Source: Gluconacetobacter tumulisoli
GTDB taxonomy: Bacteria; Pseudomonadota; Alphaproteobacteria; Acetobacterales; Acetobacteraceae
Length of the DNA stretch: 60,019 nt
Direction of reading: 5' to 3'
NCBI RefSeq assembly: GCF_014174155.1
Contig: NZ_JABEQM010000018.1
Span: forward strand, 1 to 60,019
The stretch's first letter is position 1, and each line of letters starts with the position of its first letter. The notes below the pieces were generated by a model. That model saw nothing but the letters and a program-made list of their open reading frames with translations. It searched no databases and had not been told where the DNA came from. Below, in pieces: positions 1 through 57,244 of this stretch. The position numbers and the translations under genes were made by a program.

Positions 1-2827
1 CCAGACGGGTCATGAGATCGGCATTGTCCAATGCTTCCGCGCCCTGACGGAGAATGGCTTCGGCGCAATCGGCTTGACCGAGATTGCTATAAAGCGCGGC
101 AAGGTGGCGGAATGCGGCGATATCCGTCAACCCTTGCGTCAGGACGGTATCTACTGCCTTCTGGAACCATGAGAGCGCCGGTTCCAGTTCGCCCCGTCGC
201 ACGGCGATTTCGCCCAGTCGAACCATGGGCGGCGGATAATCGGGGGCCAGGGCCAGCGCTTCGCGCGTTTGGGTCTCGGCGGCCTCCGTTTCACCCATCT
301 CCAGAAAAATGCCCGACAACAGAAGGTAGGAAGCGGGATCCTGAGGATTTTGATCGATGGCCTGGCGTGCCAGATCGACGGCCTGCGGAAATTTTTCACG
401 GCGCCGGGCGATGTCGGCGGCACGACGCAGGACCTTGATATCCCGTGGGTAGATCTGCAGCGCCCGCTCGGTCAGATTCGCCGCCATGTCCAACTGGCCC
501 GAACGCATATGCAGGTTCGCGAGGTGCAGAAGATTGCCAACCTCCGAGGGCGCGCTCTCCGCCGCGGCTTCGGCAAAGTGGAAGGCTTGCGGCATCTTGT
601 TCTGCCGTATCAAGACCTCGCTCAACCGGCGCTGGAGCAGGAACGATTCCGGCGCTATGGCCAGGGCCGTCTCGGCGGCTTCCTCGGCCGCCTGCAGATC
701 GCCGCTCCGGACATGCAGGCCCGCTTTCATGCTAGGTATCATTGCGTCGTGCGGATCGAGCGCGATAGCCCGATCCAGAAGGGCAAGAGCCGTCTCTAGA
801 TCGAATTGCCGGGCCTTGATGTCGCTCAGCGTCTTCAGGCAGACGATGTGATCGGGTTGCAGAGCCAAGGCCCGGGAAATCGCCTCCTCGGCCCCTGTCA
901 TGTCGCCTGAGCGTAGCAGAATGGTTGACAGGAAAAGATAGGATGAGATGTCGCGCGGATTCAGAGAGATAGCCTGCTGTGCCAGTTCAATGGCACGGGA
1001 AACCTGACTGCGGCGTCGGGCGATATCCGATGCACGGCGTAGAACGGTCACGTCCCGGGGAGCGTTCTTCTGGGCCAGCTCGATCAGGCTTGCGGCTATA
1101 TCCAGATCGCTCACGTTGGCGTGGAGGTTGGCGAGGTGAAGCAGGTTGCCGATATCCGCAGGCGCGGTTTCTACCGCCGCTTTGGCAATCTGGAACGCTT
1201 CCGGTGTTTTGCCCTGACGCGCCAGAACGTCGCTCAGTCGCTGTTTCAGTTGGGGCGAGGCAGGTGACAATGCCAGGGCGTGCCGGGCGGCATCCTCGGC
1301 GGCCTGCAATTCTCCGGCACGGATGTGCAGGCCGGACTTGGCGCTGGGGATCATGGCGTCGCGCGGGGCAAGCGCCATCGCCCGGTCCAGCAGGGATAGT
1401 GCCGCCTTCAGGTCGAACTGCCTGGCCTTGATGTCGCTCAGTTGCCTCAGTGCACCGACATGCTCGGGTTGCAGGGCGAGTGCTTGTTCGGCCACCCTCT
1501 CGGCTTCCGCCAGATCCCCTGAATACAGGATGATGGTTGAGAGATGGAGGTAGGACGACGCATCGAGCGGATTCAGGGCGATGGCCTTGCGGGCCAGGTC
1601 GATGGCGTGGGGGAACTGGCTTTGGCGCCGGGCGAGGTCCGATGCGCGACGCAGCACCATCACGTCGTTTGGCGAGCGTTCCATCGCCCGTTCGATCAGG
1701 CTTGCAGCCGTATCCAGTCGACCCGCGTTGGTATGAAGGTTGACGAGGTGAAACAGGCTGCCGATATCCGCAGGCGCGGCCTCTACCGCCGCTTCGGCAA
1801 GCTGGAGAGCCTCCGGCATTCTGCCCTGACGTGCCAGAACGTCGCTCAGTCGCTGTTTCAGTTGGGGCGAGGCGGGTGACAATGCCAGGGCCTGCCGGGC
1901 GGCATCCTCGGCTGCCTGCAACTCTCCGGCACGGATATGCAGGCCGGACTTGGCGCTGGCGATCATGGCGTCGCGCGGGGCAAGCGCCATCGCCCGGTCC
2001 AGCAGGGACAGCGCGGCCTTCAGGTCGAATTGCCTGGCCTTGATGTCGCTCAGTTGCCTCAGCGCGCCGATATGCTCGGGTTGCAGGGCGAGTGCGCGCG
2101 TAAGCACATTTTGCGCCTCCTCCAGTTCTCCGGCCTGCATATGCAGACGCCCGAGATGCAGATGAGACGGAATGGATTGAGGATCGTGACTGAGTGCGCT
2201 ACGGGCCAGGGTGAGCGCCCGCGACACGTCGCCGTCTCGTGCGGCTACATCGCTCATCCCGCGAAGAAGAAACGGATCCTGCGGCGCGATTTCAAGCGCC
2301 CGTGCCAATGCCGCCTCGGCGGCGGCGAAATCCTGTCGCCGCAAATGCACCTGGGCAACCGCTTGGTGGCTATACGGGTCCATCGGCGCCAGGGCGACGG
2401 CTTCCTGCGCCCGCTTCAGGGCCTGTGGCAGATCGTTGGCGGCAATCAGCAACCCGCTGAACTGGCGCAGCGCCTTGGCGGGTTCGGACGACAATTCCGC
2501 CGCCCGCGCGGCGGAGGCAACGGCCTCGTCTACTCGGCCGGTGGCGAGATACCATCTGGCGATCTGGAAATGACCGTCCGGCACGGTCGGCTGCGAGGCA
2601 ATGGCCTCGCGCAGCAAGGATCCGGCTTTATCAAAATAACCCTGTCTCTGCCGGATATCGGCCAGTCGCAGCAGCATTCCGACCGGACGGTCGTTATGGT
2701 CGATGGCTGCCTGAATGATCCGCGCCGCGGTCTCGAGATCACCCCTGGCCATCGACAAGGATGCGGCCTGAGTGGTTGCGCGAAGATCCGTCGGGTCAGG
2801 GGAAACGGTCGGGAAATGGCTTGTCAA
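1..2827 (-). CDS. Large TPR-repeat protein, C-terminus outside window
   Basis: The minus-strand frame is open from 2827 to the window edge, about 942 codons, so the gene is partial at its 3' end. After roughly 25 residues the protein is an almost unbroken run of 34-residue tetratricopeptide repeats (A-x-A-L-x-L-x-P type), a protein-protein interaction scaffold. No enzymatic domain is visible in this part. I chose a TTG start at 2827 because AAGGAG lies 9 nt upstream (2842-2837); the first in-frame ATG (2752) has no such site and would remove 25 residues. Inside the gene a unit of 612 bp (six TPRs) recurs: the copies near 1180-1500 and 1790-2110 are nearly identical, and a more diverged one lies near 600-850. 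Its neighbours upstream are an FkbM methyltransferase and a GT61 glycosyltransferase on the same strand, so a role in glycan synthesis or protein glycosylation is possible. That role is inference. Confidence 0.85.
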   Translation of the reverse strand, partial: MTSHFPTVSPDPTDLRATTQAASLSMARGDLETAARIIQAAIDHNDRPVGMLLRLADIRQRQGYFDKAGSLLREAIASQPTVPDGHFQIARWYLATGRVDEAVASAARAAELSSEPAKALRQFSGLLIAANDLPQALKRAQEAVALAPMDPYSHQAVAQVHLRRQDFAAAEAALARALEIAPQDPFLLRGMSDVAARDGDVSRALTLARSALSHDPQSIPSHLHLGRLHMQAGELEEAQNVLTRALALQPEHIGALRQLSDIKARQFDLKAALSLLDRAMALAPRDAMIASAKSGLHIRAGELQAAEDAARQALALSPASPQLKQRLSDVLARQGRMPEALQLAEAAVEAAPADIGSLFHLVNLHTNAGRLDTAASLIERAMERSPNDVMVLRRASDLARRQSQFPHAIDLARKAIALNPLDASSYLHLSTIILYSGDLAEAERVAEQALALQPEHVGALRQLSDIKARQFDLKAALSLLDRAMALAPRDAMIPSAKSGLHIRAGELQAAEDAARHALALSPASPQLKQRLSDVLARQGKTPEAFQIAKAAVETAPADIGNLLHLANLHANVSDLDIAASLIELAQKNAPRDVTVLRRASDIARRRSQVSRAIELAQQAISLNPRDISSYLFLSTILLRSGDMTGAEEAISRALALQPDHIVCLKTLSDIKARQFDLETALALLDRAIALDPHDAMIPSMKAGLHVRSGDLQAAEEAAETALAIAPESFLLQRRLSEVLIRQNKMPQAFHFAEAAAESAPSEVGNLLHLANLHMRSGQLDMAANLTERALQIYPRDIKVLRRAADIARRREKFPQAVDLARQAIDQNPQDPASYLLLSGIFLEMGETEAAETQTREALALAPDYPPPMVRLGEIAVRRGELEPALSWFQKAVDTVLTQGLTDIAAFRHLAALYSNLGQADCAEAILRQGAEALDNADLMTRL

Positions 2828-2836
2828 TACCCGGAA

Positions 2837-2842
2837 CTCCTT
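2837..2842 (-). promoter_or_regulatory. Ribosome binding site deciding a TTG start
   Basis: The minus strand reads AAGGAG here, 9 nt before TTG at 2827. It is the only strong Shine-Dalgarno match ahead of the TPR frame and is the reason for choosing the TTG start. Confidence 0.5.
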
Positions 2843-3035
2843 AGCTTGCAATTCACACTCTACAGGCTTCCGGCGCAAATCGCGATGGGTGCTTTCTGTC
2901 AGGATGAGGGTCGGATTTGTCGACGCGCATAGCCCCCAAATGTCAGGCCATTATTCACACCAAGACACAGTTTTTTGATTCGTGCAGGTACAGGTACGAT
3001 TCGGGAGGGGAAGCGCCCCACGCCCTTCCTATTCT

Positions 3036-3130
3036 ACTGCGACATGGAGTGGCTTCGTTTACGTCGCATTCGTTATCGATGCGTTCGCGAGATATATTAT
3101 CGGTAGGCGCGTCGGCCGGACTGCCTGCCA
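3036..3130 (+). pseudogene. Fragment of IS3-family transposase (OrfB, rve domain)
   Basis: About 30 codons on the plus strand translate to a segment containing GFVYVAFVIDAFAR followed by YIIGRRVGRTA. This matches the well-known conserved stretch of IS3-family OrfB integrase cores (usually D-x-T-Y-V...G-x-x-Y-V-A-F-V-I-D-x-F-A/S-R). There is no start region, the first catalytic DxTY part is already missing, and the similarity stops after the RTA residues. It is therefore a scar and not a working element. No terminal inverted repeats were recognised. It occupies the 335-bp gap between the TPR gene and the FkbM gene; nothing else in that gap was identified. Confidence 0.6.
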
Positions 3131-3162
3131 CAGCCGATCGCCGTTCCCCGTGACCGTCTCTT

Positions 3163-4023
3163 TCACGGATGCGCATCACATTTCGGTCCATGATAGCAGA
3201 ACAGATTGACATGAAACGGGGTCTGGAAATCAGGCCTCGGGAAGGACCTGATATGTGGCCACGGGTTCTTGCGGATGACGCAGATCGTATAGCCAGCCAT
3301 CATCAGGATGTTCAGCTGCTTCTCGACATTGCCGCGTGTGCGATCGTCGCCGTCATATGTCGCTTCCATGACGATATAGGGTCGGTTCTTGGAAATGACG
3401 GCGTGGGCCCCTTGCAGGGCGCGGCTTTCGTATCCCTCGATGTCCATCTTGATGAAATGAACATGCTTGATTCCCTGTTCGGCGACATAGCGATCCAGAG
3501 TCGTTGAATGGACTTCGACCGTATCGGCGGCTGCGCCGTTCACGGGGTCTTTCATGCTCCAGCCCCCCAGATTCAACCGTCCTTCCAGGACAGGCACGCC
3601 CGCCATCATCGCATGATGGCTGACCTCTGCCTTGCTTGAAAGCGCAAGCGGACTGACGACGATATTGTTGGCATTGTTCAATTCGATATTGCGCAGCAGC
3701 CGCGTGCGGCTGATTGGCATCGGTTCGAAGGCATGTACGCATCCCTCCGGCCCCACCCGGCGGCCGAGAAGCAGACTATGCCATCCGATATTGGCGCCGA
3801 TATCCAGGCAGGTCCATCCTCGCTGCACAACACTCCCCATCAAGGCGGTTTCCGCCGGTTCGTGCATGCCCTGGTTGATCAGTCGGTGCTGGAGACGGTC
3901 ATTGTCTGCAAGGAACAGACGCAGTCCTTCGGCCTCATGAAGGCTGCCGTCGAGTTCCCATGCAGCGAGGTCCGAGGGGGTCGTTCTTTCAGCCATTGCG
4001 GTCTCTTCGGTAAAATGCGTCAT
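3163..4023 (-). CDS. FkbM family methyltransferase
   Basis: The product is about 286 aa and SAM-dependent; FkbM enzymes O-methylate sugars or other small hydroxyl substrates. The SAM-binding motif I (CLDIGANIGWHS, residues about 72-83) is followed by an acidic strand end (HAFEPMP) and the characteristic FkbM motif IKMDIEGYE (about 191-199). The frame extends to a TTG at 4044. I prefer the ATG at 4023; another ATG at 3996 is also possible, and none has a strong ribosome binding site. It lies between the GT61 gene (upstream) and the TPR gene (downstream) on the same strand, which suggests modification of a surface glycan. Base composition in and around it looks less GC-rich than in the housekeeping genes further right. 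Confidence 0.85.
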   Translation of the reverse strand: MTHFTEETAMAERTTPSDLAAWELDGSLHEAEGLRLFLADNDRLQHRLINQGMHEPAETALMGSVVQRGWTCLDIGANIGWHSLLLGRRVGPEGCVHAFEPMPISRTRLLRNIELNNANNIVVSPLALSSKAEVSHHAMMAGVPVLEGRLNLGGWSMKDPVNGAAADTVEVHSTTLDRYVAEQGIKHVHFIKMDIEGYESRALQGAHAVISKNRPYIVMEATYDGDDRTRGNVEKQLNILMMAGYTICVIRKNPWPHIRSFPRPDFQTPFHVNLFCYHGPKCDAHP

Positions 4024-4188
4024 TTTGCCGGAATCTTTTTCCAACTTGATAGGGTTCGTCCGGCGACTGTCTTAGCTGCTAACAACAGCATGAATTTCGT
4101 CCTCGTGAAAGGATTGCGGCTGGGGGGCGCCCGGTTGCAAAGGAAGGACGAGTGCGGAGCGCTCAGAGCTTCGTCGGGCCAAATCGTT

Positions 4189-4209
4189 TCCGAAAGAAAT
4201 TATTTCGGA
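4189..4209. repeat. Short inverted repeat between GT61 and FkbM genes
   Basis: TCCGAAA and TTTCGGA form a perfect 7-bp stem around a 7-nt loop in the 258-bp gap downstream of the GT61 gene. No T-run follows on the minus strand, so it is at best a weak terminator. The gap is visibly AT-richer than its surroundings and probably also holds the FkbM promoter. No gene was seen in it. Confidence 0.3.
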
Positions 4210-4281
4210 GACGAATGTATCATGATGAATTGAATGGCGCGTGTTGAAATATTAAATCCAATAAAAATCGGCGTTCCTCTT

Positions 4282-5550
4282 TCAAGAGATCATCCATTTG
4301 GACAAGACGTCATGAGAAAGAAGAATGTCATGATCCCGGATATGTCGCACATCGGGGCGTAGGACGCGCGTGCCGACGGCACAACTGTATTTCATCCCTG
4401 CGGCGACGGCCGTCAGCCAGTAGGCAGGGGTTGAGTAATCGGGAGGAAAGATTTCCAGCACGCGGGCACCGGGACGGCAGAAAACCAGATTGGCCAGACC
4501 GGCCCCGTGGGCAGCGATAATGCGCCTAGCCCCCCGGAAGAGGGCGATCTGTTCGGCAAGGGTCAGGGTTTCCGGATCGATCGAAACGAAGCCATTGCGG
4601 CTCAATCGACGCTGGTCGGCGCGGGACAGGATCAGGCGGCGGGTGCGCCGGCGTTCGATGATGATATTGCGAATTCCCGCGGGTCGGATGCGCCGTGCCA
4701 GCCGGGTTTGCAAAAAATCAGCGGCCCATCGGGCCCCGCCGTGCAACGCATGGGCGTACGACGATCGTATCGTGGATGTCGCGACAAAGTGGCGGAAGGC
4801 GACAATCGGGCGGTGTGTCTGGTCCGGATCTTTGGGGATTTCGATGATCTGCCCGGGTCCGATTCCCAGGGCGTCCAGGCTCTGTCGCTGGAAGGGGGCG
4901 AGGGCACGAGGAAAGACGAAGGTATGGTCCCGCAGGTTGGCGCCCGTCTGTTCCAGCAGATGGAGCCGCGGAAGCCAATCCAGCACCCAGTGGCAGTAAT
5001 TATTGCCCACGAAATGGTCGTGAATCATCGCTACCCGTTCGATATGGATCCGCTCGCCCTTCAGGGCCGCGAGGCCTCCTTGCAGATACAGGCCGTCGTG
5101 ACCGGGGCTGGACAGCGGAACGACGACATTGCGTCCGTCCTCTGTCCGCCGCAGACAGGTGGGCAGATCGTGGCGAAATGACAGTTCGAAGCCGGAGACA
5201 TTCGACACATATCCGTCGATCGCAGGCAGATGACGCGCCGTCACATGGTCGGGCAGGGCCTGCGGGTGTTCGGGCGTCAGGCAATTCGGTGGTGGTAGTT
5301 CCGCGGTCCAGGCGTCAGTCAGCGGAACGATTTCGGCGACGTGCCGAATATCCAGAATATCAGGCGAACGGATGTCAGGTCGTGTCAGTTCCGGATGGTT
5401 AGCAAGATAATGATCGGAGAAGAGATCCGACAGATCGGCTCTATCATCGTGTCCCAGTAAACGGTTGATGGCAGGGCGTAAGCGCCGGGCAAGCGGTGGG
5501 TCCTGGGTGATCCTGGCGAAGAATTTTTCGAGGTCCGGGGGCTGAGACAC
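4282..5550 (-). CDS. Glycosyltransferase family 61 (DUF563) protein
   Basis: The product is about 422 aa. The C-terminal half carries the GT61/DUF563 signatures: HDHFVGNNYCHWVLDWLPRL in the middle (an N-x-x-H/Y-W-x-x-D/E-x-L-P-R-L pattern) and, near the end, a run with ARRIIAAHGAGLANLVFCRPG followed by a VLEIFPP motif. Family members are cytoplasmic or membrane-associated transferases that add sugars to polysaccharides or glycoproteins. The donor and acceptor cannot be read from the sequence. The frame begins with GTG at 5550; the nearby ATG is out of frame. The gene ends 258 bp before the FkbM gene, and its start is 32 bp from the 3' end of tRNA-Arg, the usual position of cargo genes at a tRNA integration site. 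Confidence 0.8.
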   Translation of the reverse strand: MSQPPDLEKFFARITQDPPLARRLRPAINRLLGHDDRADLSDLFSDHYLANHPELTRPDIRSPDILDIRHVAEIVPLTDAWTAELPPPNCLTPEHPQALPDHVTARHLPAIDGYVSNVSGFELSFRHDLPTCLRRTEDGRNVVVPLSSPGHDGLYLQGGLAALKGERIHIERVAMIHDHFVGNNYCHWVLDWLPRLHLLEQTGANLRDHTFVFPRALAPFQRQSLDALGIGPGQIIEIPKDPDQTHRPIVAFRHFVATSTIRSSYAHALHGGARWAADFLQTRLARRIRPAGIRNIIIERRRTRRLILSRADQRRLSRNGFVSIDPETLTLAEQIALFRGARRIIAAHGAGLANLVFCRPGARVLEIFPPDYSTPAYWLTAVAAGMKYSCAVGTRVLRPDVRHIRDHDILLSHDVLSKWMIS

Positions 5551-5581
5551 ATGTAGGACCTGTCAGAATTGGCGGGGTATG

Positions 5582-5883
5582 TGGTGTCCGCGGCGGGATT
5601 CGAACCCACGGCCCCAGGATTCATCCCACTTCGGCTTTCGCCGCCGCCATCGGGTGATGGCGTTCGTGGTCTGGACTGTCCCTTCACCTTGGGCCCGAGG
5701 GCCGTTAGGTGCTGCCCGTCCAGTCTCTACACCTTCCCGGCCGGAGCCGGGCTTGGCTCGGGATCGGCATGGCGCGCGGCCGCAGCGTTCCCCGAATTTG
5801 AGCAGATCCGTCACGAGGTTTCCCACCGCGACGCCCAATTTGAACCAGGAATCCTGTGCTCTATCCTGCTGAGCTACGCGGAC
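5582..5883 (-). tRNA. tRNA-Arg(CCU), interrupted by a group I intron
   Basis: The 5' half (5883 down to 5847) starts GTCCGCG and contains a standard D arm (GCTC/GAGC) and the anticodon stem CAGGA, then TTCCT. The 3' half (5621 down to 5582) resumes with AA-TCCTG, then a 5-nt variable loop, a T arm with TTCGAAT, the acceptor strand CGCGGAC, discriminator A and encoded CCA. Joining the halves gives a 77-nt tRNA with anticodon loop TTCCTAA, so the anticodon is CCU (arginine, AGG codons). The 225 nt between the halves (5846-5622) follow the last anticodon base directly. Acceptor, D, anticodon and T stems all pair; the T stem has one G-T pair. It lies between the GT61 gene and holA. Confidence 0.93.
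5622..5846 (-). ncRNA. Group I self-splicing intron (IC3-like) in tRNA-Arg
   Basis: The 225-nt insertion has the landmarks of a small group I ribozyme. The 5' exon ends in U (CCU). A GGG about 11 nt into the intron, immediately before P2, can act as the internal guide and pair with CCU, giving the obligatory G-U pair. P2 is capped by GGGAAACC. A CAAATTCGGGGAA segment fits the P3/P4 side. GCCGATCCCGAGCCAAGC resembles the Azoarcus J/P6 region. AAGGTGTAGAGACTGGACGG is the R element (P7 with the G-binding site), and AAGGGACAGTCCAG is the S element completing P7. The last intron base is G at 5622. No homing endonuclease frame is present. The order and wording of these elements closely follow the Azoarcus tRNA-Ile and Agrobacterium tRNA-Arg introns as I remember them. 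Confidence 0.88.
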
Positions 5884-5894
5884 ACACAGATGCC

Positions 5895-5923
5895 TGTCTA
5901 GACGACCACCGGGATTCGGGCAA
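5895..5923 (-). promoter_or_regulatory. Sigma-70-like promoter of tRNA-Arg
   Basis: The minus strand reads TTGCCC (5923-5918), a 17-nt spacer, then TAGACA (5900-5895). The -10 box ends 11 nt before the mature tRNA 5' end at 5883, so transcription would start a few bases ahead of the tRNA. Confidence 0.55.
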
Positions 5924-5997
5924 GCGTTCGTCGCCAAGGTTTCCGGGCGGGGAGGGACGGGCAGGGGCGATCAGCCGATGTGTGACGAGCGGAAGGC

Positions 5998-7014
5998 TTA
6001 TCGTTCCCGCCGCAGCATCATCGCGGTGCCGGCCAGGCGGGCGATGTGACGGCGGCACAAGGTGAGGTCCGGCGCGCCGGTCTGCTTGCACTCCCGTTCC
6101 AGATGCTGGGTCTGCTCGGCGGCGTCCATCAGGCGGTCGGCGGTCCAGAGCGAGAGGGCCTGGCCGAAGGCTTCGGTGCGTTTGAAAAAGACCGGGGGAC
6201 GCAGGCCGCGCATGGCATCGGCACGGCTCTGCCCCGAATCCATCGCGATTCGCGCCCGGCGCAGACGGTGCAGGTGCGAGAGTAGCGAGCGTGCGATGGC
6301 GATGGGGCTGGTGCCTTCGGCCAGGGCGCGTTCGATGGCCGTGTCGGCCGCCGCCCGGTCGCCGGCCGTCGCGGCGAAGGCCGCGTCCTCCAGCGACACG
6401 CCTGCGGCGTCGCCGATGCAGGTGCGCACGTCATCCAGCGAAAGCTGTCCGCCCCGGCCAGCATAGAGGGCCAGTTTCTCCACCTCGCCCCGCGTGGCGG
6501 CGCGGTCCGGGCCCAGAAGGCCGGCGAACCACGACAGGGCGTCCGGGTCGATCCGGATTTCCTCGGCGGCCAGCATCTGGCGGATCGATGCCTCCAGCGC
6601 CCGGCCTTCCTCGGGATAGCACGCGATGGCGGCCGCTTCGGCATGGGCCTCGACGAGCGTGCGCAGGCGCGAGCGCGAGGCCAGGCCAGGCGCTTCGACG
6701 ATCACGAGCGTATCGGAGGGTTGTCCCAGGCAGTGCTTGAGGGGGGCCGTCATCGCATCCGTGGCGTCACGGACCCAGACGACGCGCCGCCCCCCGGTCA
6801 GCGACAGCGCGAAGACCTCTTCTTCCAGCCGGTCGGGGGCGTCGCGGTCCAGGACGGCGACCCGGAACGGATCGTCCAGGTCGGGCGCCACGGCCAAGGC
6901 GGCCGTGCGGGCGCGTTCGCGGACCAGGCCGGTATCGTCGCCGTGCAGCAGGATGACGCGCAAGGCCCCCGGTTCGCGCAGGATGCGGGCGGCCGAGCGC
7001 GCGTCGACCTTCAC
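5998..7014 (-). CDS. holA: DNA polymerase III subunit delta
   Basis: The product is 338 aa, the usual length of HolA. It is the clamp-loader subunit that opens the beta sliding clamp. The N-terminal half shows the degenerate AAA+ fold of the family, with VILLHGDDTGLVRERA in place of a P-loop and RRVVWVRDATDAMTAPL further on. The middle contains the conserved LLGPDRAATRGEVEKLALYAG segment, typical of HolA (L-x-x-D-x-x-x-x-x-x-E-x-E-K-L-x-L-Y). The start codon overlaps the end of lptE by 4 nt (7011-7014), so the two are translationally coupled in the leuS-lptE-holA operon common in alphaproteobacteria. Confidence 0.93.
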   Translation of the reverse strand: MKVDARSAARILREPGALRVILLHGDDTGLVRERARTAALAVAPDLDDPFRVAVLDRDAPDRLEEEVFALSLTGGRRVVWVRDATDAMTAPLKHCLGQPSDTLVIVEAPGLASRSRLRTLVEAHAEAAAIACYPEEGRALEASIRQMLAAEEIRIDPDALSWFAGLLGPDRAATRGEVEKLALYAGRGGQLSLDDVRTCIGDAAGVSLEDAAFAATAGDRAAADTAIERALAEGTSPIAIARSLLSHLHRLRRARIAMDSGQSRADAMRGLRPPVFFKRTEAFGQALSLWTADRLMDAAEQTQHLERECKQTGAPDLTLCRRHIARLAGTAMMLRRER

Positions 7015-7757
7015 TGGTTGCCTATCGTTCCGTTCGCGGGCTGGCTCTCGCTCGTGCCCGAGGGGTTGGGGTTGGTGCGCCCGATCGCCATCGCGGGCAT
7101 GCCGTCCTCGCCCACCGATTGCTCCTGTATGTCGGTGCTGGAATTGGGCATGACGTTGGGGTCGACATAGCTGGGCCGCGGGCCTGCCACGTGCTGCTGC
7201 GGGGGCGGGGCCTTGGTCCGGAACCAGATCGCGACCTGCTGGGTGATCCGTTCGGCCAGCGCATTGGCGACCCGCCGGGCCAGTGTGGCCTGGTTCAGGT
7301 TCTGGGCGAAATATTGTTCGTAGGTTTCGTTTTCGCCGTCCATGGCCTGGGCATCGCCCTGTGCCAGCACGACCGGAGCCGGCGCCACGGTCTGCAGGAT
7401 CCAGTGGGCGTGGCCGGTGGCGCGGGTCCGGCCCGACGTATTGTCCTGATGGATGTCCAGGCTTTCGTTCATGACGAACGAACTGACCTGCAGTGTATAG
7501 CCGGTCGGGTTCTCGGGGGCCGATCCGGCCATGTCCTGTTGCAGGAACAGGCGCAGTTCCTGGCCGTACCGTTCCGGAATGCCGGCGACATAGACCTGTC
7601 GCAGCTTATCCGGAATCGTACCCCCATCCGCCGTTTCGCCGCTGCTGCCGTACAAGGGTTGAAAGCCGCATCCCCCGAGGGCCAGTAGCACAGCCGCCGC
7701 CACGGTCCGGTATGCGTACCGGAGGCAGGTCTGGCGGGACAAGGGGGAAAGGATCAT
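7011..7757 (-). CDS. lptE: LPS-assembly lipoprotein LptE
   Basis: The product is 248 aa. A signal peptide ends in the lipobox LALGGC (Cys30), followed by the GFQPLYG motif found at the mature N-terminus of LptE/RlpB proteins. LptE sits in the outer membrane as the plug of the LptD barrel and helps insert lipopolysaccharide. The core up to about residue 180 has the expected length. Residues 181-248 form an extra low-complexity tail rich in P, Q, N, S and G. The gene starts 4 nt after leuS ends and overlaps holA, which supports the assignment. Confidence 0.88.
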   Translation of the reverse strand: MILSPLSRQTCLRYAYRTVAAAVLLALGGCGFQPLYGSSGETADGGTIPDKLRQVYVAGIPERYGQELRLFLQQDMAGSAPENPTGYTLQVSSFVMNESLDIHQDNTSGRTRATGHAHWILQTVAPAPVVLAQGDAQAMDGENETYEQYFAQNLNQATLARRVANALAERITQQVAIWFRTKAPPPQQHVAGPRPSYVDPNVMPNSSTDIQEQSVGEDGMPAMAIGRTNPNPSGTSESQPANGTIGNQ

Positions 7758-7761
7758 CCGG

Positions 7762-10377
7762 TCAGCCCGCGATCACGAAATTGACGATACGGTTGGGCAC
7801 GTGGATGCGCTTGACGATCTTTCGCCCGTCCAGCAGGCGCGCGATATTCGGTTCGGCCTCGGCCTGCGCCAGGATGTCGGCGGCCGGGGCATCGGGGGGG
7901 GCATCGATCGTGGCGCGCAGCTTGCCCATGATCTGGATCGCGATGGTCACCTGTCGGGCGACCAGCAGCGCCGGGTCGGTTTCGGGCCATGCGCGCTGAA
8001 CGGCCGGCGCCTGGCCGGGCTCCAGGATCGAGAGCATTTCCTCGGCCTGGTGTGGAACCATGGGGGCCGTCAGCAGGCACAGGGTCCGCGCGGCTTCGCG
8101 GCGGGCGAAATCCATGCCGTCCTGTCCTGCCGTGCGCTCGGAATCGGCAAGGGCGGAGGTCAGTTCATGCAGGCGTGCCACGGCGACGTTGATGGCGAAT
8201 CCGTCCAGCGCGTCGCCCACCGATGCAATCGTGCGATGGGTGATGCGCCGCAGCGTGTCGGCAGCGTCGGACAGGGTTTCGGGTCGTGCCGCGACGTCGG
8301 GTACGGTCTCGGCCACCGTGCGGACCGTACGGAACAGGCGCTGCAGGAATCGCGCGGCGCCCGATACCCCGGCCTCGGTCCACTCCATGTCGCGATCCGG
8401 CGGACTGTCGGACAGGACGAACCAGCGGGCGGTGTCGGCACCGAACCGTTCGATGATGGCGACCGGGGCGACGGTGTTCCGCTTGGATTTGGACATCTTC
8501 TCGACACGGCCGACCGTGACCGGCATGCCGGTATCGCGGCGGACGGCGCCGTCTCCCCGACGTTCCACCTCATCGGGGTACAGCCAGCTGCCATCGGCGT
8601 CGCGGTAGCTTTCGTGGTTCACCATGCCCTGGGTGAACAGGCCGTCGAACGGTTCGTCCAGGCCGACATGCCCGGTCTCGCGCATCGCGCGGGTGAAGAA
8701 GCGGGCATAAAGCAGATGCAGGATCGCGTGTTCGATGCCGCCGATATACTGGTCGACCGGCAGCCAGCCGTCGGCGGCCGCGCGCACGGTGGGGGCGGCG
8801 GCATGCGGCGCGGTGAAACGCGTGAAGTACCAGGAACTGTCGACGAATGTGTCGAATGTATCGGTTTCACGCGTGGCGTCGGCCCCGCAACGGGGGCAGG
8901 CGACATGTTTCCACGTCGGGTGATGTTCCAGCGGGTTGCCGGGACGGTCGAACGTCACGTCCTCGGGCAGGACAACCGGCAACTGGTCGTCCGGCACCGG
9001 CACCGCGCCGCAGGACGCGCAATGGATGACCGGGATCGGGCAGCCCCAGTAGCGCTGGCGCGAAATGCCCCAGTCGCGCAGGCGCCAGTTCACGACGCCC
9101 CGGCCGACGCCCATCCCTTCGAGGCGGGTGATCGCCTCGGCCTTGGCCTGGACCGTGTCCAGCCCGTCGAGGAACCCGGAGTTGAACAGCGTGCCGTCGC
9201 CATCCCATGCCTTGCCGGTGATGGTGAAATTCGTCGCGTCCTCGCCGGGCGGCAACACGACCGGGCGGAACGGCAAGTGGTAGGCATGGGCGAAATCGAG
9301 ATCGCGCTGGTCGCCGCAGGGGCAGCCGAAGATTGCCCCGGTGCCATATTCCATCAGTACGAAATTCGCGATCCAGACCGGGAAGGTCTGATCGGGCGCG
9401 AAGGGATGGGATACGCGCAGGCCGGTGTCGAAACCGCGCTTTTCCGCGGTTTCGATCGCTTCCTCGGACGTGCCCAGGCGCCGGCATTCGGCAATGAAGG
9501 CGGCGGCTTCGGGGTTGGTCTGCGCGACCCGGGCGGCCAGCGGATGGTCGGCGGCGACGGCGATGAAGGCCATGCCGAACAGCGTGTCGGGACGGGTGGT
9601 GAAAACCTCGACGGAATCGAGGTCCGTGTCGAACCCGGCAGGCGGGCTGTGCAGCGCGAAGCGCACGCGCGCGCCGACCGACCGGCCGATCCAGCGTTCC
9701 TGCATGGTGCGGACCCGGTCCGGCCAGCGCGGCAGGTGCGACAGGCCGTCCAGCAGGTCGGGCGCGAACTTGGTGATCCGCAGGAACCATTGCGACAACT
9801 GCTTCTTTTCGATCAGGGCGCCCGACCGCCAGCCGCAGCCGTCGACGACCTGCTCGTTGGCCAGGACGGTGTGGTCCACCGGGTCCCAGTTCACCCAGCT
9901 TTCGCGCCGTTCCACCAGGCCGGCCTGGAGCATGTCCAGGAACAGCTTCTGTTGCTTGCCGTAATAATCGGGCAGGCAGGTCGCGATTTCACGATCCCAG
10001 TTGAACGAGAAGCCCAGGCGCTTGAGCGTTCCGCGCATGGTGGCGATATTATCCAGCGTCCAGATGCGCGGATGCACGCCGCGTTCCCGCGCCGCGTTTT
10101 CGGCGGGCAGGCCGAACGCGTCCCACCCCATCGGATGCAGGACCGAATAGCCGCGCGCGCGCTTGTAGCGCGCGACGACATCGCCCAGCGTGTAGTTGCG
10201 GACATGACCCATGTGGAGCTGTCCCGACGGGTAGGGAAACATCTCCAGCACGTAATATTTCGGCCGGTCGGCGGGGGGGACGTCGGGCACGTCGAAGGCC
10301 CCCGCCCGTTCCCATTCCGCCTGCCAGCGCGGCTCGGCGGTGCGGAAATCATATGGGGCGGGGGAGATCTCGGTCAT
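7762..10377 (-). CDS. leuS: Leucyl-tRNA synthetase
   Basis: The product is 871 aa, full length for bacterial LeuRS, a class I synthetase charging tRNA-Leu. The HIGH-type motif is seen in [15 protein letters not shown] near residue 50, followed by [16 protein letters not shown]. The editing (CP1) domain shows [12 protein letters not shown], and the KMSKS motif is present as [10 protein letters not shown]. The C-terminal anticodon-binding part ends in [18 protein letters not shown]. It is the first gene of the leuS-lptE-holA operon; the DUF3576 lipoprotein gene lies 136 bp upstream on the same strand. Confidence 0.97.
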
Positions 10378-10513
10378 GATTTCGGTCCGGGGCGCGTGGG
10401 CCCTGATAGGCGGAAGAAGGGAAGGGCGGCCAGGCGCGCGGCCGGGTCACCGGTGCGGAACGGAAAGGTCGTGGCCCCGTCCCGGTACACGCGCGCCGGG
10501 ACGGGGGACGGGA

Positions 10514-11044
10514 TCAGTGGCCGCCGCCGTCGGCGCGCAGCTGCCGCGCACGGGTCAGGATCTTGGAGGTGATGTCCGACACGGTGTTCGGCGCGACCGG
10601 CGTATCCATCCATTGCCCATCCGTCAGGGCCTGACGGAAGACCGAGACCCGGATCGCGTCGGACCGCAGGTTGCGCGACAGGACATACGCCGTGATCTTG
10701 AACCGTTCGTTCTTCGTCGCGGGCGGAGTGTACCAGTCGGTGAGGATCACCCCGCCGACGGCGTCGGCCGAGGCGAAGGGCATGAAGGACAGCGTGTCGA
10801 TCGCGCCCCGCCACAGATAGGCATTGACGCCGTTGTTGGCGAGCTGGTCGTCGCCGCCGTTCGCCGACCGGTCTTCGTTGATCAGGTGGTTGCGGGGCAG
10901 GGCCAGGCCGGTATCGCCGCGGTGCGACGAGCCCGAGCAGGCCGACAGACCGGCCATGACGGGGACGAGGAGCATGGCGGAACGCACGCGCCCCCATGGC
11001 GAGAGGGCACGGCGAATGGCGACGAATGGCGGTCGAACGGTCAT
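10514..11044 (-). CDS. DUF3576 family lipoprotein
   Basis: The product is about 176 aa. From the chosen ATG (11044) the N-terminus is a basic and hydrophobic signal sequence ending in the lipobox GLSAC (Cys36), so the protein is probably membrane-anchored in the periplasm. The mature part contains NAYLWRGAIDTLSFMPFASADAVGGVILTDWY, split here by an A/S-rich turn, and ends with ILTRARQLR; this is the pattern of DUF3576 proteins usually found just before leuS in alphaproteobacteria. The frame is open to 11185, but the extra 47 residues are arginine-rich and unlike a signal peptide. The function is unknown. A shorter start at the MLLVPV methionine is possible. Confidence 0.75.
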   Translation of the reverse strand: MTVRPPFVAIRRALSPWGRVRSAMLLVPVMAGLSACSGSSHRGDTGLALPRNHLINEDRSANGGDDQLANNGVNAYLWRGAIDTLSFMPFASADAVGGVILTDWYTPPATKNERFKITAYVLSRNLRSDAIRVSVFRQALTDGQWMDTPVAPNTVSDITSKILTRARQLRADGGGH

Positions 11045-11233
11045 GATGCCCCTGTGGCCCCCTCGGGTATGGACCCGTATATGGACCGGCCGCCGTGGCG
11101 TATCCTGCCTGCTTCGGCGACGAGCGTGCCACGGTCCTGCCGGTTTAGATGCCGCCTTCATATCCCGGCCCGCCAGCCCCGCCAAGTCGCCCGGCGATTT
11201 TCTCGATTTTCTCCTGTCGGCGCGGGGATCCGG

Positions 11234-12388
11234 CTAGGCCTGTGCGGTCCCGGATTCGGACGCCTGCGCCCACAGCACCAGCAGCAGTGCCAGAAGCGCC
11301 AGGGCCGCGCCCACGACCGGCAGCCCGCCATATGACCATGCGGTCGGCACGACCATGCCGCCGATCCAGGCCCCTACGGCATTGCCCAGGTTGAAGGCGC
11401 CCTGGTTGAGCGTGGAGGCCATGTTCGGCGCCTCGGCCGCCTGCTGCACCACCCGGTATTGCAGCGGCGGGATGAGAGTGAAGACGATCACCCCCCACAG
11501 GAACAGCGTCGCCATCGCCGGCACCGCCATCCGGCTGGTCACGAGAAAGGCCAGCAGCACGACGATCGAAGCGACCAGGGTCATGATCACCGACGGCAGC
11601 AGCTTCCAGTCCGCCAGACGGCCGCCCAGCAGGTTGCCGATGGTGATGCCGGCCCCGAACAGCAGCAGGGCGATGGTGACCAAATGCGGCGACAGGCCGG
11701 CCCGGGTCTGCAGGAACGGGGCGATATAGGTGAACACGCTGAACAGGCTGGCAGAGCAGACGGTCGAGATCACCATGGTCAGCAGCACCTGCGTCCGGCG
11801 CAGCACGCGCAGTTCGGCCAGGACGCGGGCGGGCGGATGCCCGTCGCCGCCCGGCAGCAGCGCCGCGATCGCCAGCAGGGCCACGACCCCGATGGCGCAC
11901 ACTGCCCAGAAAGTTGCGCGCCATCCTGCCCATTGGCCCAGTGCCGTGCCGAACGGCACCCCGAACACGTTGGCCAGCGTCAGCCCGGCGAAGACGAGGG
12001 ACAGCGCCTGTGCCCGCTTTTCACGGGGCACCAGGTCGGCCGCCACGATGGCGGCGGTGCCGAAGAATGCGCCGTGGCAGAATGCGGTCATCACGCGGGC
12101 CACCATCAGCAGGCCATATCCCGGCGCCAGGGCGCAGAAGAGGTTGCCGAAGATGAACATGCCCATCAGCACCAGCAGCGCAGTCTTGCGCCGCAGCGGC
12201 GCGGTGGCGACGGCCACGATCGGCGCGCCGACCGTCACCCCCAGTGCATAGCCCGAGACAAGCTGTCCCGCGGCGGGAATCGACACATGCAGGCTGGCGG
12301 ACAATTGCGGCAGCAGGCCCATGATGACGAACTCGGTCGTCCCGATACCGAAGGACGCCAAGGCAAGCGCAAGGAGGGGCAGGGGCAC
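11234..12388 (-). CDS. MFS transporter, DHA1-type drug/sugar exporter
   Basis: The product is about 384 aa with twelve hydrophobic segments. The N-terminus (ALASFGIGTTEFVIMGLLPQ) and the loop VSGYALGVTVGAPIVA are typical of the YdhP/AraJ-like DHA1 subgroup of inner-membrane H+-coupled exporters. The motif A region after TM2 is reduced (TAPLRRKTALLV). I use the GTG at 12388 because no in-frame ATG precedes the first membrane segment. The open frame itself runs on to 14722, but that extension is antisense to the GH3 gene and has no coding character. The gene is divergent from the GH3 gene, with 243 bp between them. Confidence 0.85.
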   Translation of the reverse strand: MPLPLLALALASFGIGTTEFVIMGLLPQLSASLHVSIPAAGQLVSGYALGVTVGAPIVAVATAPLRRKTALLVLMGMFIFGNLFCALAPGYGLLMVARVMTAFCHGAFFGTAAIVAADLVPREKRAQALSLVFAGLTLANVFGVPFGTALGQWAGWRATFWAVCAIGVVALLAIAALLPGGDGHPPARVLAELRVLRRTQVLLTMVISTVCSASLFSVFTYIAPFLQTRAGLSPHLVTIALLLFGAGITIGNLLGGRLADWKLLPSVIMTLVASIVVLLAFLVTSRMAVPAMATLFLWGVIVFTLIPPLQYRVVQQAAEAPNMASTLNQGAFNLGNAVGAWIGGMVVPTAWSYGGLPVVGAALALLALLLVLWAQASESGTAQA

Positions 12389-12496
12389 GATGATGGGTTC
12401 CGGAGAAGGGGCATCGCACAGGAAGGGGCGATGCGGACGTCCTTCTTCTCTGTTCCGTTTCGCTTGAAAAGAGTGTTCATGCGGCCGCGGATCGAA

Positions 12497-12527
12497 GCAT
12501 GTGGGTAGCGACGTTTTCGCCACATGC
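12497..12527. promoter_or_regulatory. Inverted repeat in divergent MFS/GH3 control region
   Basis: GCATGTGG and CCACATGC are perfect inverted copies separated by 15 nt, about 109 bp before the MFS start and 105 bp before the GH3 start. The geometry fits a dimeric regulator site serving either gene. No regulator gene is adjacent. Confidence 0.3.
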
Positions 12528-12631
12528 GCGTTGAGGCATGGGGTGTTGCGAAATGCTGCGGGGCCGGCGATGCAGGGGGCACACGGTCGAGGTGTTGCGC
12601 GCGCCTCCAATGACAAGAAAGCAGGACGAGG

Positions 12632-14629
12632 GTGGTACGGGTGACGGGCGTGAAGAGGCGGCGGGCCGGACAGGGACGTGGGTGCAGGGCCCTGGCGGTC
12701 GTGATGGCGGTCAGTGTTGCCATGATCGGGGACCGGGGGATTGCGTCGGCCGGAGGCGTCGAACGGCCGGCCAGGCTGGCGGCCCTGCTGGCGCGCCTGA
12801 CGCCGGAGGATAAGCTGGCGCTTGTGCAACTTCGCATGCCCCGTCCCCAGGCGGGCCAGCCGACCATCGTCGCCCTGCCGGGCATTCCCAGGGTCGGCCT
12901 GCCGACGGTGCGCATGGCACTGGAGGACGCAGGGGGCGCCGCATCGCCCCTGGCGCTGATGGCAAGCTGGGATGTCGGACTGGCGCATCGGGTCGGGCAG
13001 GCGTCTGCCCGATCGGTGCGGGCGACCGGGCAGGCGATCCTGCCGGTGGGGGGTGTCGGCCCGACGGGCGCCGGACGTGCGCGCGATGGCGAGGACCCGT
13101 TGCTGGCCGGCAGTGTGATGGGGGCGATGGCCGCCGGCCTGATGTCCGGCCATGTGCTGCCGTTGTTCGGGGGTGACGATGCCGGTACCGGCGCGACGCC
13201 CCCAAGCATGACCGAGGATCGGATGCTGGGCCTCTACCTGGCGATCGGACAGGCCCGTGGCGGGGGGATCCTGTGCCGGGCCGTCGTTGCCGCCGCCCAT
13301 CCGTGCGGCGACATGGACGGGATGGGGCGGACGATACGTGACGGCTGGCGATTCGGCGGCATGGTCGCCGAAGTCGCGGACCGCGAGGCCGATGGCGACG
13401 GGGCGTCGCGCCTGCCGTTCCTGCTGGCGAGCATCGCCGACGGGGTGGACCTGGAGGGGGCGCCAGCTGCGGACGGCCTGTATGTCGTGGCGCTGCGCCA
13501 GGCCCTGCGGACCGGGGCCGTGCCGTGGACCCGGCTGGATGCGATGGCGGAGCGGATCCTGCGGACCCTCGACGAATCGGGGGTGATCGATCGGCCGCCG
13601 CCTTATGTCGCCCCCCATGGCGCATCGAGCCCGGCATCCGCGCGCGACCCGCTTCTGGATGAGGAGGTGGCCGAGGGTGCGGTCCTGCTGCAGAACGAGA
13701 ATGCCGTCCTGCCGCTGGGCGGGACGCAGGCCGCGCCGGTCCTGGTGGTCGGCACGAACGGAACGCACGATGCGGCGCGCGCGGTGGCGGAGGCGATGCG
13801 GCGTACGGGCCTGGGCGTTCGTGTGGCGGCCGATTCTCCGGGTGACGGCGTGGTGGCTGCCGACGCGGCGAAGGCGGACCGTGTGCTGGTCTTTTCCGAC
13901 GGGCCCCAGGATGACCGACTGATCGCCGCGATCGCCGGCAATGGCGGCCATGTCGTAGTCGTCCTGCTGTCCGACGATCCGGATCGGCCGATGCCGTGGC
14001 TGGACCTGGTCGACGGTGTCGTGCAGGCCTGGTCGTGGCGTGGAGGCGGTGCGTCGGCGCTGGCGGCGCTTCTGACCGGGCAGAGGGATTTCGCTGGACG
14101 GCTGCCGGCGACCTTCACGGGCGGCCGTGCGCCAGCCGATTTCGGCCGGGCCGGATACAAGGCGTTCGACCGCGCGCATGTCGCGCCGCTCTTCCCCTTT
14201 GGATACGGCCTGTCGAATCGGGCGCGCTTCGCCTATTCCGATTTGCGCGTCACCCGCGACGGGACGCGGCTGGTCGTGTCGTTCGGTGTGACGAATGCCG
14301 GCAGCGGCGCCGGCCGGGACGTGCCGCAGGTCTATCTGGACCTGCCGGCCGGGGCGGGGGACGCGCCCAAGCGGCTGGTGGGCTGGCGTACGGTGCAGTT
14401 GGCGCCGGGGCAGGGCGCGCATCTGTCGGTGGGCATCGATGCGCATCTGCTGGGCCATTGGAATGCGCCGACCCTGGAATGGGTCGTGCCGGCGGGTGAT
14501 TACGCCGTCTCGCTGGGGCCCCATTCGGCCAATCTGGTGCGGCAGGTCGCCCTGCATCTGCCGGAAATGCACGTGCCCGGCACCCTGCCCCCCGTGCTGG
14601 CGGCGGATTCTACTGTCCGGGACGAATGA
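12632..14629 (+). CDS. GH3-like protein (BglX architecture), probably non-catalytic
   Basis: The product is about 665 aa from GTG at 12632 (several GTGs cluster here; AGGACGAGG precedes). A signal-like hydrophobic stretch covers residues 19-41. The order of parts is that of beta-glucosidases of family 3: an N-terminal domain with GEDPLLAGSVMGAM (about 153-166), the GH3-C domain (EEVAEGAVLLQNENAVLPLG near 345, later FAGRLPATF and LFPFGYGLS), then a fibronectin-III-like domain (NAGSGAGRDVPQVYLDLP). The expected active-site blocks are missing. Where KHF/Y and N-x-QE should stand there is LPLFGGDDAG, and where the nucleophile motif VMSDWGA should stand there is MVAEVAD (244-250). The N-terminal domain is also shortened. 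It may be a binding or structural protein in the periplasm. Its last 20 bp overlap the convergent transglycosylase gene. Confidence 0.8.
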   Translation: MVRVTGVKRRRAGQGRGCRALAVVMAVSVAMIGDRGIASAGGVERPARLAALLARLTPEDKLALVQLRMPRPQAGQPTIVALPGIPRVGLPTVRMALEDAGGAASPLALMASWDVGLAHRVGQASARSVRATGQAILPVGGVGPTGAGRARDGEDPLLAGSVMGAMAAGLMSGHVLPLFGGDDAGTGATPPSMTEDRMLGLYLAIGQARGGGILCRAVVAAAHPCGDMDGMGRTIRDGWRFGGMVAEVADREADGDGASRLPFLLASIADGVDLEGAPAADGLYVVALRQALRTGAVPWTRLDAMAERILRTLDESGVIDRPPPYVAPHGASSPASARDPLLDEEVAEGAVLLQNENAVLPLGGTQAAPVLVVGTNGTHDAARAVAEAMRRTGLGVRVAADSPGDGVVAADAAKADRVLVFSDGPQDDRLIAAIAGNGGHVVVVLLSDDPDRPMPWLDLVDGVVQAWSWRGGGASALAALLTGQRDFAGRLPATFTGGRAPADFGRAGYKAFDRAHVAPLFPFGYGLSNRARFAYSDLRVTRDGTRLVVSFGVTNAGSGAGRDVPQVYLDLPAGAGDAPKRLVGWRTVQLAPGQGAHLSVGIDAHLLGHWNAPTLEWVVPAGDYAVSLGPHSANLVRQVALHLPEMHVPGTLPPVLAADSTVRDE

Positions 14630-45748: not shown

Positions 45749-45854
45749 CGCGGAGCGGTCGTGCGCAACAGGACGCGGGCAGAAATCGGCGCGCGGAAAT
45801 CCATGCGTGGCCCGGCTTGCACCGGCATGCCTGTGGCGCGATAGTCGCCGACAT

Positions 45855-45906
45855 GGGGATGGGGTTCCCCCATTAACCGCCCTCGCAAGGGCTGATGACT
45901 CCTGCC
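45855..45906 (+). ncRNA. Fluoride riboswitch (crcB motif)
   Basis: The segment contains GGGGATGGGGTTCCCCC, then ATTAACCGCCC, a CGCAA loop, GGGCTGATGACTCCTGCC. This is the fluoride aptamer: GGxGATGGxGTTCxCC, the AACCGCC stem and the invariant GCTGATGACTCCT end. Downstream, GGCAGG (45921-45926) can pair with CCTGCC at the aptamer's end, and a GC-rich hairpin with a CCCCCGCC arm precedes the GAGGAA ribosome binding site. A ligand-dependent switch in front of crcB is therefore likely, probably acting on translation because no U-run follows. Confidence 0.95.
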
Positions 45907-45966
45907 GTGTCAATCCAGGCGGCAGGGGTGCGTCCGGGCCCCCGCCCGCCATAATGAGGAACGGTT

Positions 45967-56260: not shown

Positions 56261-57244
56261 ATGACCGGGGCCGAAGCGCGCGAGGCCTTCCTGGCCTGGC
56301 TGCATGACGAGCGGCGGGCGTCGCCCCTGACGGTCGAGGCCTATCGGGGCGATCTGGTCCGCTTTCTCGATTTCATCGGCGGCCATGTCGGGGGCGAGGT
56401 CGACCTGGACATGCTGGATCGCCTGTCGCTGACGGATCTGCGCGCGTGGCTGGCGTTCGAACACGCCGAATCGCTGCGGCCCCGTCGCGACGGCCGGGCC
56501 AGCACGCAGGATCGCGCCGCCCGCACCCGGGCGCGGCGGGTGTCGGCCATGCGGTCGTTCTTTCGCTATCTCGCGCGCCGGCATGGCGGCACCAATCCCG
56601 CGCCGCGCCTGCTGGCCGCCCCGCGCGCGAAGGCCACCCTGCCGCGTCCCCTGACCCGGGACCAGGCGCTGGAGGTCCCGCAGGGCGTGGGGGACTTGGC
56701 CGTGACGCCGTTGGCGCGCGTGCGCGACGGGGCGTTGTTCCTGTTGCTGTACGGATGCGGCCTGCGGATTTCCGAGGCCCTGGGCCTGGATGTCCGGGAC
56801 CTCGATCATGCGCTGGCGCGCGGCGGCACGCTGCTGATCCGCGGGAAGGGCGGGCGGGAACGGCTGGTGCCCGTCCTGCCGGCGGTGCGGCAGGCTCTGC
56901 TGGACTGGCGGGCGCGGCATCCCGCGCCGTTGCCCGAGGCGCCGCTGTTCCCCGGCGTGCGGGGGGGACGGCTGCAACCCGCCGTGGCGCAGCGGGCGAT
57001 GCGGACGTGGCGGCACATGGCCGGCCTGCCTGACCACGCGACGCCGCATGCGCTGCGTCATTCCTTTGCCACGCACCTGATGACGGGCGGGGCGGACCTG
57101 CGGACCATCCAGGACCTGCTCGGCCATGCCAGCCTGTCGACGACCCAGCGCTATACCCTGGCGGACGAGGCGCGGCTGATGGAGGTCTGGGCCCGCGCGC
57201 ATCCCCGCGCGGACACGCCCGACCGGGCGCCGGACCCGAAGTGA
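56261..57244 (+). CDS. xerC: Tyrosine recombinase XerC
   Basis: The product is 327 aa. The N-terminal SAM-like domain (FLAWLHDERRASPLTVEAYRGDLVRFLDF) binds DNA. The catalytic residues of tyrosine recombinases are all visible: R169 (GLRISEAL), K196 (RGKGGRERLVP), H263 and R266 (HALRHSF), H289 (LLGHASL) and Y298 (TTQRYTL). It resolves chromosome dimers at dif together with XerD. ATG 56261 is preceded by GGGGA; the long upstream frame is antisense to priA. priA-xerC as divergent neighbours is common in alphaproteobacteria. No phage or integron genes are adjacent, so it is a housekeeping Xer. Confidence 0.93.
   Translation: MTGAEAREAFLAWLHDERRASPLTVEAYRGDLVRFLDFIGGHVGGEVDLDMLDRLSLTDLRAWLAFEHAESLRPRRDGRASTQDRAARTRARRVSAMRSFFRYLARRHGGTNPAPRLLAAPRAKATLPRPLTRDQALEVPQGVGDLAVTPLARVRDGALFLLLYGCGLRISEALGLDVRDLDHALARGGTLLIRGKGGRERLVPVLPAVRQALLDWRARHPAPLPEAPLFPGVRGGRLQPAVAQRAMRTWRHMAGLPDHATPHALRHSFATHLMTGGADLRTIQDLLGHASLSTTQRYTLADEARLMEVWARAHPRADTPDRAPDPK

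Follow-up and report, generated by a model that had tools for sequence, protein, structure and literature searches.

A tRNA-Arg(CCU) gene split in its anticodon loop

The window, by which we mean the whole stretch of 60,019 nt that was analysed and which is the entire contig C18 of a 3.96-Mb draft genome, carries a 77-nt tRNA-Arg(CCU) gene on its minus strand (5883..5582) with a 225-nt insert (5846..5622), as called by ARAGORN when introns were allowed. The insertion point lies between anticodon base U36 and A37, and ARAGORN run on the joined halves returned the same 77-nt tRNA-Arg(CCU). This agrees to the base with a preliminary description of this DNA, which had derived a 77-nt tRNA by removing 225 nt past the anticodon. 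The description had assigned the insert to the group I introns, with the anticodon loop as its site, and was right about position, boundaries and family; the motifs it listed (GGGAAACC, CAAATTCGG, GTAGAGACTGGACGG and GGGACAGTCCAG), together with the guide GGG and the terminal G, were all found (Table 1). At 225 nt the intron has no room for an endonuclease gene.

Upstream of the split tRNA, at a distance of 114 nt, lies a holA-like gene (7014..5998, minus strand), named by reading, as the lone Pfam match of that ORF is below the cut-off. A search of 5500-6100 turned up neither a sigma-70-like promoter nor a terminator, and this counts against the reading given below. At default settings ARAGORN found no tRNA in the window.

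Table 1. Coordinates of the split tRNA gene, the elements of its intron and an integrase match on the same contig
Feature	Position	Strand	Basis or remark
tRNA-Arg(CCU) 5' half, 37 nt, ends in anticodon CCU (bases 34-36)	5847..5883	-	ARAGORN with introns allowed, and with halves joined
Group I intron, 225 nt, terminal G = base 5622	5622..5846	-	ARAGORN, RF00028, covariation, model R2
tRNA-Arg(CCU) 3' half, 40 nt, CCA encoded	5582..5621	-	ARAGORN
Internal guide GGG in P1, pairs with exon CCU, U-G wobble at 5' splice site	5834..5836	-	Sequence reading
P3 5' strand CTGCTC	5800..5805	-	5/6 pairs vary on both sides, 99.5% of cells paired, 31 introns
P3 3' strand GGGCAG	5712..5717	-	Covariation count
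P4 5' strand TCGGG	5791..5795	-	100% paired; 4/5 pairs invariant, one varies on both sides
P4 3' strand CCCGA	5758..5762	-	Covariation count
P7 5' strand GACTG (guanosine-binding helix, R element)	5721..5725	-	100% paired; 4/5 pairs invariant
P7 3' strand CAGTC (S element)	5674..5678	-	Covariation count
P8 hairpin CACCT...AGGTG	5685..5711	-	Innermost pair broken in 13/31 sequences
Phage_integrase domain match	56717-57169	+	51 kb from tRNA

The insert has the core of a group I intron

The Rfam group I model RF00028 matched positions 5852..5663 (27 bits, E 7.9e-5 in 651 nt), leaving the last 41 nt uncovered, and in the whole genome this locus was its sole match (E 1.1e-4). The score lies below the Rfam gathering threshold of 50, which is a threshold for detection and not a structural feature, and a gathering scan of the window therefore omitted the intron. 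The Infernal match that the preliminary description had anticipated over 5622-5846 thus covers most of that interval, but under the curated cut-off. Since default ARAGORN and the Rfam cut-off both miss the gene, the genome would seem to be without a tRNA-Arg(CCU). A covariance model (R2) that excluded Arg introns and was trained on 11 from tRNAs for Leu, Lys and Thr gave a single match in the window, at 5810..5665, with 140 bits and an E value of 1.1e-30, the window intron fitting this model across its full length.

We counted covariation in 31 distinct cores of introns from this genome and its relatives (one intron containing N was excluded), treating P7 as a pseudoknot and leaving P1, P2 and P9 outside the count. 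Across these introns 96.7% of the cells pair, and 18 of the 35 pairs show changes on both sides; cells with such two-sided changes number 101, as compared with a mean of 24.4 in shuffled sets, and none of 500 shuffles reached 101. Sliding the partners out of register lowered pairing to 28-49%, in a control that favours the window, the structure having been set on the window's own row. Helices P3, P4, P6, P7 and P8 are conserved in the core, with covariation seen in P3, P4, P6a, P7 and P8; P6 proper consists of two pairs that are invariant across the 31 introns, so that the covariation there is that of P6a. The variable pair of P7 is G-C in 24 introns, A-U in four and U-A in three.

Introns of subgroup IC3 are marked by GAAA loops on P2 and P9, the absence of a large P5 extension and a tRNA host. 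GAAA loops were read by eye on P2 and P9 of the window intron, a candidate member of this subgroup. The window intron also ends in G, as do all 94 distinct Arg-class introns, a count that is uninformative because the script demanded G at that position. The whole precursor folds more stably than shuffled sequences (z -2.9, with 0 of 100 shuffles as good); the intron folded alone has no clear excess of stability (z -1.2, with 26 of 200 shuffles equally good), which, like the RF00028 score under its cut-off, we count against the reading.

The intron belongs to an alphaproteobacterial family

In a DNA search, each of the 13 genus mates had the full 302-nt gene, with 90-96% identity. With a second covariance model, R1, which includes the window sequence, the intron family was found in 14/14 Gluconacetobacter genomes. 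Within the host's family, the Acetobacteraceae, R1 detected it in 148 of 297 genomes and 51 of 91 genera; among 387 genomes sampled from the Alphaproteobacteria, some of which belong to the host's own family, 49 had it. The two large R1 searches used stricter filters and lost weak matches. Six relatives (L078, L079, L095, L096, L098 and L099) have a tRNA-Arg(CCU) gene without the intron, in which the predicted junction falls within the anticodon loop, and the presence of the intron is therefore patchy above the genus.

Over aligned positions, the window intron is 84% identical to one from Bartonella tamiae. In a 62-row tree, for which the large classes were represented by random samples and nine loci flagged in a quicker tree were set aside, 17 of the 18 sampled Arg introns, that of the window included, form one clade (support 99/95) that takes in Bartonella, Mesorhizobium and Skermanella; the remaining one, L072, whose host belongs to a different family of the Alphaproteobacteria, lies outside it. 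Group I introns in alphaproteobacterial tRNA-Arg(CCU) genes were reportedly described by Reinhold-Hurek and Shub in 1992 and by Paquin et al. in 1999, and the window intron is a further member of this published family: it lies in the same tRNA at the same site after CCU, is of similar size and falls in one clade with the introns of B. tamiae and Mesorhizobium. Group I introns are also known from tRNA-Ile of Azoarcus and from cyanobacterial tRNA-Leu(UAA) and tRNA-fMet. These likewise lie in or near the anticodon, and tRNA-Leu(UAA) is a host among the window's relatives as well; the tRNAs are otherwise different ones, and the likeness is one of description, not of sequence.

PMC7717549 names Agrobacterium as the source in which the family was first discovered, and reports that the intron of B. 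bacilliformis tRNA-Arg(CCU) (BbgpI) splices both in vivo and in vitro; these are other species, to which the window intron is likened by description and not by sequence. According to a table note in PMC4596401, Gluconacetobacter diazotrophicus and other acetic acid bacteria have one tRNA-Arg that is interrupted by a homologue of a group I intron. The split tRNA-Arg of G. diazotrophicus PAl 5 belongs to the same genus and is very probably the orthologous locus, the identity of the site being our reading of that note (PMC4596401). The suggestion that the present case would extend the known set hence does not hold in kind, a split tRNA-Arg being on record for G. diazotrophicus in that same table note (PMC4596401), and we regard the window case as a well-bounded addition to the known tRNA-Arg(CCU) intron family. 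Other papers describe interrupted tRNA-Leu(UAA) and tRNA-Arg(UCU) in Thiomargarita and the BOGUAY genome (PMC4853749), introns in tRNA-Ile2 and fMet (PMC8450103), rRNA introns alone (PMC8155191) and general background on tRNA introns (PMC4033280, PMC3984707).

Predicted splicing and its alternatives

In the proposed reaction, the precursor tRNA would be transcribed with the intron inside the anticodon loop, and the guide GGG would pair with the anticodon CCU, so that a U-G wobble marks the 5' splice site. The first attack, after U36, would come from a free guanosine bound in P7, the freed exon end would then attack past the intron's terminal G so as to join U36 to A37, and the product would be a normal 77-nt tRNA-Arg(CCU). 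We hold with high confidence that the insert is a self-splicing group I intron yielding this tRNA. Its position, boundaries, covarying core and guide pairing, the empty sites in relatives and its placement in the clade are direct observations; the window intron very probably splices itself, judging by its family membership, and we infer that the gene is transcribed, that the intron is catalytically active and that the tRNA, once spliced, is charged and put to use.

When all 49 further tRNA matches in the genome were read for their anticodons, none had CCU, so that no second, intact tRNA-Arg(CCU), which the preliminary description had named as grounds for giving up its proposal, was found among them. 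Arg(UCU), Arg(CCG) and Arg(ACG) tRNAs were found, and AGG occurs 0, 0, 0, 2 and 2 times in five window genes counted. A tRNA-Arg(UCU) could read AGG through wobble. CCU is missing from the other 49 tRNA matches, but with tRNA-Arg(UCU) present the idea that all AGG decoding may depend on splicing is too strong.

These same data allow another explanation, namely that the intron is a decayed one that has lost splicing, leaving a dead tRNA gene, and that tRNA-Arg(UCU) reads AGG; the existence of that tRNA and the rarity of AGG in the five genes would fit. It is nonetheless very unlikely, considering that the window copy matches R2 over its full length with 140 bits, that the tRNA halves still join to a whole tRNA, that the intron is kept in 14/14 genomes of the genus and that CCU is absent from the other 49 tRNA matches. 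Removal by a protein endonuclease in the archaeal manner would suit a site near the anticodon, which resembles the canonical archaeal and eukaryotic site as given in PMC4033280, but the insert has the core of a group I intron, in which P3, P4, P6a, P7 and P8 covary, and boundaries that obey group I rules (U before the intron, G at its end), and we give this alternative almost no weight. That a mobile fragment or an assembly artefact lies in the tRNA by chance might be thought from the tRNA's 3'-side flank, which is unlike that of all 13 genus mates, but the same intron, site and holA-side flank occur in those 13 genomes, making chance insertion or misassembly extremely improbable.

Host tRNAs and guides among related introns

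Among 244 loci, several of which share the same place, 181 distinct introns were called: 94 in Arg(CCU) after base 36, 52 in Leu(UAA) after base 34, 20 in Lys(UUU) after base 34, five in Thr(GGU) after base 36, four in Leu(CAA) after base 34, three in Lys(UUU) after base 35 and three in uncertain other hosts. One scan required an exact 21-nt stretch and only the matches listed were used, so that these host counts are lower bounds and not frequencies. There was no host call for 21 of the 244 loci, among them uninterrupted, truncated and unrelated pieces; L129, L185, L198, L217, L267 and L269 have neither a host call nor an explanation. A set of 28 further loci included two introns in Lys(CUU) after base 35 and four loci without a host call. 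By our reading, L183, automatically called selenocysteine, is Lys(UUU), while L317 and L318, called Met, are Arg(CCU); L320 was discarded as spurious, and the exact anticodon of L172 and L258 (Leu CAG/UAG) is uncertain. At least 15 of the 20 Lys(UUU) introns after base 34 are from Actinomycetota, while L074 is alphaproteobacterial. Several Actinomycetota tRNA-Lys(UUU) introns (L107, L108, L128, L133, L152, L170 and others) carry the exact 21-nt R-element stretch of the alphaproteobacterial introns.

Guides were compared with exons in a matrix of 197 introns, six doubtful loci excluded, which is partly circular because splice sites had been chosen with a bonus for P1 pairing. In five of the seven host classes the guide pairs with its host's own exon. 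All 96 Arg guides make at least three pairs with their own exon (mean 3.01), compared with means of 1.36-2.04 for six other exons, and own-exon pairing was seen in 5/5 Thr, 63/66 Leu(UAA), 20/20 Lys(UUU) after base 34 and 2/2 Lys(CUU) introns. Against a clean rule that the guide fits the host, at least three strict pairs with the own exon were made by none of the four Leu(CAA) and none of the three Lys(UUU) introns after base 35. The last three, two from Gluconacetobacter and one from another member of the family, have a guide that fits another tRNA better. Guides of the Lys(UUU) introns after base 34 average 4.00 pairs with the Lys(CUU) exon versus 3.05 with their own, and the Arg exon is also fitted by guides of Lys(UUU) after base 35 and Lys(CUU) introns (4.00) and of Leu(CAA) introns (3.00). 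In the Leu(CAA) introns L154, L166, L259 and L262 the 5' exon ends in C, and a C-G pair would replace the usual U-G at the splice site.

In the quick tree, made from 195 cores without the guide region (six rows skipped), the eight host classes require 11 changes, versus 85.8 when shuffled. The 62-row tree puts the Arg introns in an open fork with Leu(UAA) introns, on a joining branch of 89/89, and supports a Leu(CAA/yAG) group (100/98) and a group of Lys(UUU) introns after base 35, Lys(CUU) introns and L074 (99/91). This placement suggests, but with 89/89 support and no fixed root does not prove, that the Arg family derives from Leu introns. We lean slightly towards a single lineage that, through changes in its guide, has repeatedly switched host tRNA within and beyond the Alphaproteobacteria, the Arg(CCU) family coming from Leu(UAA) introns.

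The host range of the relatives (Leu, Lys and Thr tRNAs) is the less expected part of these results and worth following. Group I introns of bacterial tRNA-Lys or tRNA-Thr were not reported among the matches listed from a mainly open-access literature, nor were Lys(UUU), Lys(CUU), Thr(GGU) or Leu(CAA) hosts among the matches listed from open-access papers. The wider survey provides a natural series, with one ribozyme lineage across different anticodon loops, and thereby makes the host switching of tRNA introns directly testable through guide/exon swaps. At L085 335-786, in genus mate G010, the 3' half of an intron-bearing tRNA-Lys(UUU) occurs again some 120-130 nt beyond that gene, a repeat that resembles the trace of integration at an uninterrupted tRNA.

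Flanks of the split tRNA

On its holA side the locus resembles that of 13/13 genus mates, at 76-91% identity, as well as that of one further member of the family (72%). For the first 1.5 kb beyond the tRNA 3' end, none of the 21 loci compared gave a match; 11 of the 13 genus mates have a 3'-side flank in common, and the other two share a different one. Positions 1-5581 of the window form a lineage-specific segment of lower GC that starts at the tRNA 3' end, with GC of 0.56-0.65 in 1-5000 versus 0.66-0.73 in 6001-14000. The segment encodes a glycosyltransferase 61, an FkbM methyltransferase and part of a long repeat-rich protein, in an open-ended ORF of at least 959 aa.

The relatives' usual flank was located in part on contig C3 of the host genome, where a search of 19.5 kb for a tRNA remnant gave only chance-level matches of 11-12 nt. 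Searched for with a tolerance of three mismatches, a 21-nt pattern from the 3' end of the tRNA occurs once genome-wide and is thus not repeated. Five integrase matches were found in the genome, one of them on the window contig (Table 1), and none adjoining the tRNA. The possible island next to the tRNA, raised in the preliminary description, accordingly has in its favour a lineage-specific 3' flank of lower GC; with no tRNA-end repeat and no adjacent integrase found, insertion driven by an integrase is unsupported, the left end of the segment lying beyond the contig. Elsewhere in the window, a fluoride riboswitch (RF01734, 56.6 bits) lies at 45846-45911 on the plus strand.
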